The notes beneath the pieces are model-generated. The model worked only from the letters and a program-made list of their open reading frames with translations, did not search any database and was not told the origin of the DNA. The position numbers and the translations under genes were made by a program. From Flavobacterium limnophilum (GTDB lineage Bacteria; Bacteroidota; Bacteroidia; Flavobacteriales; Flavobacteriaceae), in assembly GCF_027111315.2 (NCBI RefSeq), contig NZ_CP114289.2:2976001-3040000 (forward strand): DNA of 64,000 nt, given 5' to 3'. Below, in pieces: positions 46,615-52,816 of this stretch (within the stretch, counting starts at the first letter, position 1; the number at the start of each line of letters is the position of its first letter).

Positions 46615-46702
46615 GCGTGAGCACAAGGGTCGGGCTTTCCGTTGCAATCTTCTGTTTTTTAAAGAAAAAAAACAAAAGGATTTCCTCTGCAATCCCTCAC
46701 GC
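46615..46702. repeat. Palindromic dispersed intergenic repeat (GCGTGAG...CTCACGC)
   Basis: An 88-bp element with perfect 7-bp terminal inverted repeats GCGTGAG/CTCACGC. Nested inside are arms around a poly-T/poly-A centre (CTTCTGTTTTTT, then AAAAAAAACAAAAGG) and paired TTGCAATC/CTGCAATCC motifs. Similar elements are, to my memory, spread through Flavobacterium intergenic regions. It is related in style to 36371-36515. No coding capacity. Confidence 0.55.
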
Positions 46703-46778
46703 GAAAACGTTATCAGATTAAGCATTTGTCAATTTGAATTGAGATAAAGCTTGCAACAGAAAACCTTTAAAAAATAAA

Positions 46779-48251: not shown

Positions 48252-48314
48252 ACCACAAATTACACAAATTTTTAGTACAGATAAGAGTTTGTGAAAATTT
48301 GTGTAATTTGTGGT
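48252..48314. repeat. Perfect 21-bp inverted repeat between purT and crp-like gene
   Basis: ACCACAAATTACACAAATTTT (21 bases at 48252-48272) is matched exactly by its reverse complement at 48294-48314, with a 21-base loop. It lies 12 bases before the Crp/Fnr start codon. It lacks a T run, so it is not a standard terminator. Candidate roles are a dispersed palindrome or an operator/attenuator of the regulator gene. The region at 9085-9125 looks like a decayed relative. Confidence 0.75.
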
Positions 48315-49759: not shown

Positions 49760-49788
49760 ATAGTTTTCTTTAAGTTAAGATATTTGAA

Positions 49789-49927
49789 TCGTCTCTTCGA
49801 GTGATTTCAAATAGTAATGCGACAGCTTTACTATTTGAAATTGTATCGAGAAGCCTGTAATGTTGAGTTCTCGATACATTTTATTAAAAAAGCTATCGCA
49901 TTTTTAATAAAACACTCGAACAGACGA
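49789..49927. repeat. 139-nt perfect four-way cloverleaf with complementary loops
   Basis: Outer stem 49789-49803 pairs with 49913-49927 (14 of 15 pairs). Hairpin 1 is 49804-49841: a 14-bp perfect stem with 10-base loop TGCGACAGCT. Hairpin 2 is 49842-49878: 11 bp perfect with a 15-base loop. Hairpin 3 is 49879-49912: 12 bp perfect with 10-base loop AGCTATCGCA. No base is left unpaired at the junction. Loops 1 and 3 are complementary in 9 of 10 positions, allowing a kissing contact. It lies between the pirin stop and the GNAT start. Whether it acts as RNA, as DNA cruciform or as a mobile palindrome is unknown. Confidence 0.8.
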
Positions 49928-49961
49928 AACCTTAACATAACGATAAAAAAATTAAAAAATC

Positions 49962-51545: not shown

Positions 51546-52742
51546 TTAAAGTTGAACCCTTTTTTCAAATATAGTTAAGAACTGGTTGAGGATTAATCCC
51601 CAGTTTTGGATTGGCATCGACCATTTTTTGGTTGCCTCTCTCAAAGCCAAATATACAGATTTTAAAACAGCTTCATCCGTTGGGAATGATAATTTGTTTT
51701 TAGTGTATTTTCTGATTTTACCATTGAGGTTTTCGATTAAATTTGTGGTGTAAATTATCTTTCTGATTTCTACTGGAAAGTCAAAGAATACGGTAAGTTC
51801 CTCCCAATTTTCTTCCCAGGATTTAATCGCATAAGGATATTTATTATTCCATTTTTTAGAAAAATCTCCCAGAGATGCTTTAGCAGCTTCTTTAGTTGGA
51901 GCATTGTAAATAAGCTTCATATCTGCCGAAAATTCCTTTTTATCTTTCCAAACCACATAACGAGCTGAGTTTCTAATTTGATGTACTACACAGATTTGGG
52001 TTTGTGATTCCGGGAATACATTTTTGATAGTTTGCGTAAAACCATTTAGATTGTCAGTAGCAGTAATTAGTATATCTTCAACTCCTCTAGCTTTTAAATC
52101 TGTTAAAACGCCAAGCCAGAAACTAGCACTTTCATTCTTTCCTAGCCACATTCCAAGGACTTCTTTTTTACCTTCTCTATTAAGTCCAACGGCTAAATAG
52201 ATGGTTTTATTGACTATTTTTGAGTTTTCTCTAACTTTAAAAACAATTCCGTCCATCCAGACTATCAGATAAACAGCCTCTAAAGGTCGGTTTTGCCAAG
52301 CAATAATATCACTCGAAACCGTGTCGGTTATCCTAGAAATAGTACTAGTGGAAACCTCAAAATTATAAACTTCTCTTATTTGTTCTTCGATGTCGCTATT
52401 GCTCATTCCTTTGGCATAGAGAGAGATTATTACGTTCTCTAAACCATCGAGCATATTTTGCCTTTTGGGCACAATTAAAGGGTTAAATGAGGCTTCTCGA
52501 TCTCTGGGAACTTGAATCTGAGATTCGCCAAATGAGGTTTTTATTTTCTTGTTAGAAAAACCATTACGAGCATTGGATTTTGTAGTTTTCTCGTGCTTAT
52601 CATAGCCTAAATGGGCGTCTAATTCGCCTTCGAGCATTTTCTCTATTCCTCGCTTTTGTAGTTGGGCTAAGAAGCCATAAAGGTCTTCGCCTGTTTTGAA
52701 TTGCTTCAAAAATTCATCGGATAATAAATCTTCCTTTTTCAT
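51546..52742 (-). CDS. IS256-family transposase
   Basis: A 398-residue mutator-type (DDE) transposase. The N-terminal part has [13 protein letters not shown] and [21 protein letters not shown], standard for IS256/IS1249-like proteins. The catalytic triad is the Asp in [10 protein letters not shown], the Asp in [10 protein letters not shown] and the Glu in [26 protein letters not shown] is the conserved C/H motif. The frame is full length and looks active. It is transcribed leftward from the right inverted repeat through a strong hairpin. Confidence 0.96.
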
Positions 52743-52764: not shown

Positions 52765-52816
52765 TAAGTAAAAAAAGTATTAGGGTTTGCACAAACCCTA
52801 ATACTTTTTTTACTTA
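52765..52816 (-). terminator. 25-bp perfect hairpin ahead of the transposase gene
   Basis: A 25-base arm (TAAGTAAAAAAAGTATTAGG, then GTTTG) pairs fully with its complement around a 2-base loop CA. On the transposase strand the second arm carries a T7 tract. It stands between the right terminal repeat and the ATG at 52742. It could stop transcription coming in from outside. Confidence 0.75.

Follow-up and report, generated by a model that had tools for sequence, protein, structure and literature searches.

The window analysed here comprises 64,000 nucleotides of Flavobacterium limnophilum (positions 2,976,001 to 3,040,000 of contig NZ_CP114289.2). Between a pirin gene and a YjdJ-like gene it contains a stretch of 139 bases that can fold into an outer stem enclosing three perfect arms, arranged as a cloverleaf (Table 1). 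A base-by-base check confirmed the pairs that the original prediction had counted in each of the four stems, as well as the absence of any gap between them, the four-way junction having zero free bases. The claim that such a fold lies beyond chance also held: the RNA minimum free energy of positions 49780-49940 is -61.6 kcal/mol, whereas 200 shuffled sequences gave -24.1 ± 3.5 (z = -10.6) and none folded as well. The opposite strand of the element, folded with DNA parameters, has a z of -12.6. We could not find any Rfam match to the element at gathering score; when E values up to 1 were admitted, seven matches were listed, each below the gathering score of its own family.

Table 1. Features of the element, its flanks and other structured sequences of the window (window coordinates).
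Feature	Position	Strand	Remarks
Whole REP dimer	49789..49927	.	head-to-head inverted pair; the cloverleaf of the original prediction
Outer stem	49789-49803/49913-49927		14 of 15 pairs; exception C49795.C49921
Arm 1	49804-49817/49828-49841		14 pairs, perfect
Arm 2	49842-49852/49868-49878		11 pairs, perfect
Arm 3	49879-49890/49901-49912		12 pairs, perfect
Monomer A, C-type	49790..49853	+
Monomer A, CGTC tag	49790-49793	+
Monomer A, closing base C	49795	+	faces C49921 as outer-stem mismatch; pairs with G49853 in the monomer fold
Monomer A, TTCGAGTG	49796-49803	+
Monomer A, own hairpin	49804-49841		corresponds to arm 1
Monomer A, TGTATCGAGAA	49842-49852		followed by G49853
Monomer B, G-type	49867..49926	-	in minus-strand order: CGTC tag, then G opposite C49921, TTCGAGTG, the hairpin of this monomer, TGTATCGAGAA and C opposite G49867
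Monomer B, own hairpin	49879-49912		corresponds to arm 3
C49921	49921	+	faces C49795 as outer-stem mismatch; partner of G49867 when monomer B folds
Loop 1, TGCGACAGCT	49818..49827	+
Loop 3	49891-49900		loop 1's type on the opposite strand
Tail-to-tail spacer	49854..49866		most of loop 2; sequence varies, length near constant in 13 aligned own-genome copies
Flank TTAAGTTAAG	49770..49779	+	by eye like the flanks of copies L032, L038 and L039
Flank CCTTAACATAA	49930..49940	+	contains CTTAACA; possible counterpart of 49770-49779
Flavo-1 RNA (RF01705)	46624-46707	-	61.2 bits, above gathering score
Inverted repeat ACCACAAATTACACAAATTTT	48252-48314		21 bp, perfect; by eye like a palindrome in the pirin intergenic stretch of genome G315
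Inverted repeat	52765-52816		25 bp, perfect, 2 nt between arms; adjoins ORF 51546-52742 (-), presumably an IS256-type transposase

The element is one of many. A blast search of the same genome with the element and its short flanks returned at least 14 further near-full-length copies of 84-92% identity, plus shorter ones, and the pattern TTCGAGTG-N20-50-TATCGAGAA, allowing at most one mismatch, recovered 56 monomers against 1 for a reversed-pattern control. By our reading, 38 of these 56 monomers form 19 pairs with their tags outside. The general order of a unit is CGTC, N2, TTCGAGTG, a variable body and TATCGAGAA, and a dimer consists of two such units in inverted orientation with the tags at its outer ends. 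The alternative put forward in the original prediction, a family of palindromic DNA, was right in outline, since the element belongs to a large set of scattered copies, each an inverted pair. Arms 1 and 3 are the bodies of the two monomers, while the outer stem corresponds to head pairing with head and arm 2 to tail pairing with tail.

This anatomy also bears on two contacts that had been proposed between loops. Loops 1 and 3, thought to kiss, do match in 9 of 10 positions, but they are complementary because one loop type is read on opposite strands in two inverted copies. There is no covariation between them, the most variable loop position having a Watson-Crick match in 5 of 13 copies (our reading), and we reject docking as a selected feature. 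Similarly, the letters TGTTGAG (49861-49867) and CTTAACA (49931-49937) are both present as described, but the former lies mostly inside the spacer that differs among copies, and we rejected their pairing for this reason. The CCTTAACATAA tract downstream resembles the flanks of a few other copies.

The same organisation extends well beyond this genome. Of 299 genomes of the genus, 85 carry the strict monomer motif, and a pattern like it turned up in 17 of 60 relatives (genus and order level); a scan of named genomes gave at least 118 stretches with the pattern. Among the 80 stretches listed from that scan, most are, by their titles, what we take to be Flavobacteriaceae; some matches in unrelated taxa have no tag and look like chance. 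No match to the pattern was found in plasmid and phage records, and 16 viral contigs (L328-L343) carry it. A short-body version of the pattern was dropped, its matches being about as numerous as those of reversed controls in many genomes. REP monomers, in tandem as well as in alternating orientation, also make up an array in the own genome (G000:C1:1773574-1776972, in part within locus L041), and similar arrays lie in G007:C12 (L050) and G017:C24 (L042).

The loci gathered from these searches contain 417 distinct units, 359 of them with a CGTC or TGTC tag, and 80 distinct tag-outside dimers. Neighbouring units are oriented with tags outside in 193 cases, tags inside in 61 and in tandem in 10, counts that are not deduplicated. 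The bodies are roughly 15-60 nt long and in many cases bear no relation to one another, the 401 unique inserts falling into 135 clusters; here and in the counts of closing pairs, partners and wobbles given below, the figures describe the gathered loci, which are no complete inventory and include related, hence non-independent, copies. Among the 106 inserts of the 80 listed loci from the genome collection, 65 are matched by at most 3 of 60 shuffles in folding as well, and the other 41 by more than 3 of 60, so that not all bodies are good hairpins.

Relatives differ in where they carry the element. We could not find any strict copy in the pirin loci of 29 relatives, chosen for their top scores among 290 matching genomes; 18 of the 29 keep both neighbour genes, and one of the 29 loci (L176) has a single match to a loose REP pattern. 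The pirin intergenic stretch is collapsed to a few bases in G251 and G112, and in other relatives it holds different palindromes, as judged by eye. The dimer of a second locus (L037) is absent in G315, G251, G295, G112 and G226, whereas both copies at a third (L031) have matches in G315 at corresponding places. Where the L037 dimer is missing in G315, G112 and G226 (loci L383, L386 and L387), differing palindromes or short REP-like sequences stand instead, and sites of this kind look as if palindromes turn over.

A flanking inverted repeat is significant in 5 of 13 dimers, one of the five (L041) lying inside a REP array, and is not significant at the copy described here, where 88 of 300 shuffles were as good. 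At L035 and L031 in the own genome (G000), and at L344, L351 and L358 in G315, the dimers share conserved flanks that can be read by eye as an imperfect outer inverted repeat (around TTTTACTGG), which makes the repeated unit at these sites longer than the dimer itself. The idea that the outer palindrome represents an empty target was not supported, the pattern being present in 1 of 299 genomes (G079), around a short CGTC-containing core.

Two folds can be drawn for every dimer, a cloverleaf and a pair of monomer hairpins, and these make different claims about which bases should vary in step. We compared them in 13 own-genome dimers, aligned from 16 listed stretches after leaving out one disrupted copy, one truncated copy and one further array copy. 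Compensated pairs number 2 in arm 1 and 5 in arm 3, 0 in arm 2 and 1 in the outer stem, the last falling at column 5, where 7 of 13 copies have no pair. At column 6 of the outer stem the C is without a pairing partner in 12 of 13 copies, and a mismatch follows arm 2 in 13 of 13. The covariation that the original prediction asked for in all stems and in the loops thus appeared in arms 1 and 3, but not in arm 2 or the loops, and in the outer stem at that one mostly unpaired column. The monomer fold has 97.4% of its cells paired and a covariation score of 0.124, versus 93.6% and 0.093 for the cloverleaf, an advantage to be read in view of the fact that the monomer fold omits poorly paired columns by construction; both folds are better than all of 500 shuffles. 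Where the two folds disagree, the variation tracks the monomer fold.

The columns on which they disagree hold the closing pair of each monomer, formed by the base before TTCGAGTG and the base after GAGAA. This pair is Watson-Crick in 353 of 417 units, 193 being expected under independence, and its commonest exception is C.C (32 of 417). The two partners of a dimer are moreover of opposite kinds: 63 of 80 dimers join a C-G-closed unit with a G-C-closed one, and 7 of 80 join two of one type. With insert clusters as the unit of counting, this partner rule holds for 28 of 39 pairs, and 6 join one type. A cluster is paired with itself in 3 of the 39, identical inserts are found in 0 of the 80 dimers, and nine insert clusters contain units of both closing types. 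The two mismatches of our copy, C49795.C49921 in the outer stem and G49853.G49867 beside arm 2, are thus the signature of the partner rule, since the partners oppose each other at the closing position. The rule may have descended from one ancient pair, the nine mixed clusters notwithstanding. In terms of folding energy, by contrast, the whole dimer is preferred over two separate monomers in 79 of 79 dimers with both RNA and DNA parameters (edge rules differ from those of the closing-pair count, hence 79 rather than 80). The cloverleaf would form only because the two partners are mutually inverted, and the four-way shape probably comes about as a by-product of their pairing.

We therefore favour, with a probability of about 0.7, the reading that two CGTC-tagged REPs, joined head to head, make up the element, likely a non-autonomous mobile DNA, in which each partner would be recognised by an enzyme as a folded single strand. 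Each partner would present constant ends (CGTC-N2-TTCGAGTG and TATCGAGAA) that bracket an interchangeable hairpin, and the pair would move as one unit. An enzyme acting in trans may recognise one folded single strand per partner, and the opposite closing pairs, C-G in one and G-C in the other, should counter pairing from partner to partner, which might be the reason for the partner rule.

The closest known kind of element is the CGTC-tagged REPs (Di Nocera, De Gregorio and Rocco, 2013; PMC3733652). As far as the available part of that paper describes them, these share with the present family a CGTC or TGTC end tag and a palindromic body, tag-outside dimers among which heterodimers are frequent, sites between co-directional or convergent genes, nesting in larger palindromes, and the lack of a linked transposase, which in our case concerns the Y1 family only. 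However, their stems are of 8-9 bp and their loops of 4-5 (same part of PMC3733652), whereas the body here varies over roughly 15-60 nt; because of this difference in stem and loop size, the Flavobacterium element appears as a variant outside the four CGTC REP families described there. Moreover, most dimers here obey the C-G/G-C closing rule, which does not appear in the available part of PMC3733652. G. forsetii is named there as CGTC-positive, and may carry this REP family. A further possible overlap concerns the RepRanger catalogue, where a table in the available part names two Flavobacterium species among those rich in REP-like sequences (PMC12306157). In the literature covered, supplements lying outside its scope, we recognised no paper describing this REP family.

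Among the alternatives, template switching would be purely mutational: the correction of quasi-palindromes would keep the hairpins perfect without selection, and would yield compensated changes in the bodies of any sequence, as is observed in arms 1 and 3. It offers no reason, however, for an asymmetry between strands. On the head-to-tail strand of the main insert type, G.U departures outnumber A.C ones by 23 to 3 over all cells, with 18 other mismatches, and across 298 inserts with at least six pairs the numbers are 61 and 19 when only departures flanked by two Watson-Crick pairs are counted. The excess is present in both partner types (29 versus 12 and 13 versus 3) and when distinct sites are counted inside clusters (45 versus 19). 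Nor does template switching give any reason for the opposite closing pairs of the partners, and we regard it as a rather unlikely explanation of the family. It may nonetheless contribute, since the wobble test per cluster is not significant: 13 clusters lean to G.U and 10 to A.C, and a few large insert clusters carry the asymmetry. For the preferred reading of a mobile REP pair, the asymmetry lends support, not proof, to one strand of each unit being the folded substrate.

A more familiar way of spreading would be that of a classic REPIN moved by a RAYT, a Y1 HUH transposase of the same genome. The inverted pair of REPs, the tag, the hairpin and the conserved internal mismatch all recall the substrates of TnpA-REP, which according to the available part of PMC8266576 takes the single-stranded REP, not its complement, and needs an internal mismatch. 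As in a REPIN or BIME, two inverted REPs make up the apparent unit, and a folded single strand of one orientation is a plausible substrate. By this analogy we suppose that the element may work like a TnpA-REP target, with one strand taken and an internal mismatch needed. The own genome has four PF01797 (Y1) matches, which would suit such a mechanism, but we could not find a REP within about 2 kb on each side of any of the four. Y1 matches were found in 67 of 85 motif-positive and 157 of 214 motif-negative genomes of the genus, which indicates no co-occurrence (Fisher p = 0.38; Y1-negative genomes being those of the 299 that are absent from the list of Y1 matches). The 18 motif-positive genomes without a Y1 match include one with 12 monomers (G090). 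Among the Y1 loci of other genomes that were scanned, two (L054 and L078) have a loose REP pattern match, and that of L078 is a listed monomer about 1 kb from the Y1-like gene. Finally, the tag is CGTC or TGTC, unlike the GTAG of REPIN/BIME elements with a RAYT in the same part of PMC8266576. We thus rejected a RAYT link, for which the odds are poor, on the absence of REPs at the own Y1 loci and of co-occurrence over 299 genomes, negatives that concern the Y1 family only.

An equally improbable alternative is a transcribed 3'-end element, in which the dimer would stabilise or terminate the messages of upstream genes. The genomic context would agree with it. Genes were called with a simple ORF caller, by which 12 of 13 own sites are free of any called gene and the remaining one falls on a doubtful ORF of 116 aa. 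At 12 sites both neighbours were called, and there the flanking genes are co-directional in 8 cases, convergent in 4 and divergent in 0. The neighbours themselves are mostly ordinary, 9 of 10 ORFs scanned in three dimer neighbourhoods belonging to such families and one having no family match; the families near dimers include an AraC-type regulator, RhaT, TauE, HMGL-like proteins, UDP-sugar dehydrogenases, FecR, a TonB-dependent receptor and SusD. Tolerance of G.U would also fit RNA. However, the G.U excess is shared by the two partner types, although a dimer has them on opposite strands, a pattern that fits single-stranded DNA better than one transcript; in addition, by our reading, the C-type partner is not always upstream.

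Selection on the four-way junction itself is in our view very doubtful, whether as an RNA cloverleaf or as a DNA cruciform that promotes recombination or binds protein. The fold is indeed very stable, its junction is perfect, and as a whole it is better than shuffled and slid controls. On the other hand, 7 of 8 compensated pairs fall in arms 1 and 3, columns 5 and 6 of the outer stem are often unpaired, arm 2 is uncompensated with a mismatch after it in every copy, and most dimers have opposite closing pairs; with covariation largely confined to arms 1 and 3 and none in the loops, selection of the junction is not demonstrated. An attenuator of the pirin/YjdJ-like pair, or a riboswitch-like RNA peculiar to it, has the location between these genes in its favour but can be dismissed, since the 29 pirin loci of relatives hold no strict copy, the intergenic stretch is collapsed in G251 and G112, other copies adjoin unrelated genes and the Rfam matches remain below gathering score.

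Returning to the mobile REP pair, a bolder version of it is tentative, and we hold it to be less probable than not by a good distance: the Flavobacteriaceae may harbour a class of mobile DNA recognised by its shape, handled by an enzyme unlike known REP transposases. In such a class the body would be freely swappable because two constant half-sites bracket any self-complementary hairpin, and units of opposite kind (C-G with G-C) would pair up, an arrangement that would let each unit form its own hairpin instead of folding with the other.

As a matter of caution, the locus illustrates that a striking predicted cloverleaf can come from an inverted duplication, and that one mismatch can tell the two folds apart. 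For the REP families more broadly, the opposite closing pairs provide a testable explanation for the heterodimer preference of CGTC REPs, which in the available part of PMC3733652 is without an obvious explanation, protection from clearance being suggested, and where the spread of these REPs is posed as an open question. The combination of constant half-sites with a freely varying body would, in turn, make sequence separable from shape in the recognition of these elements.
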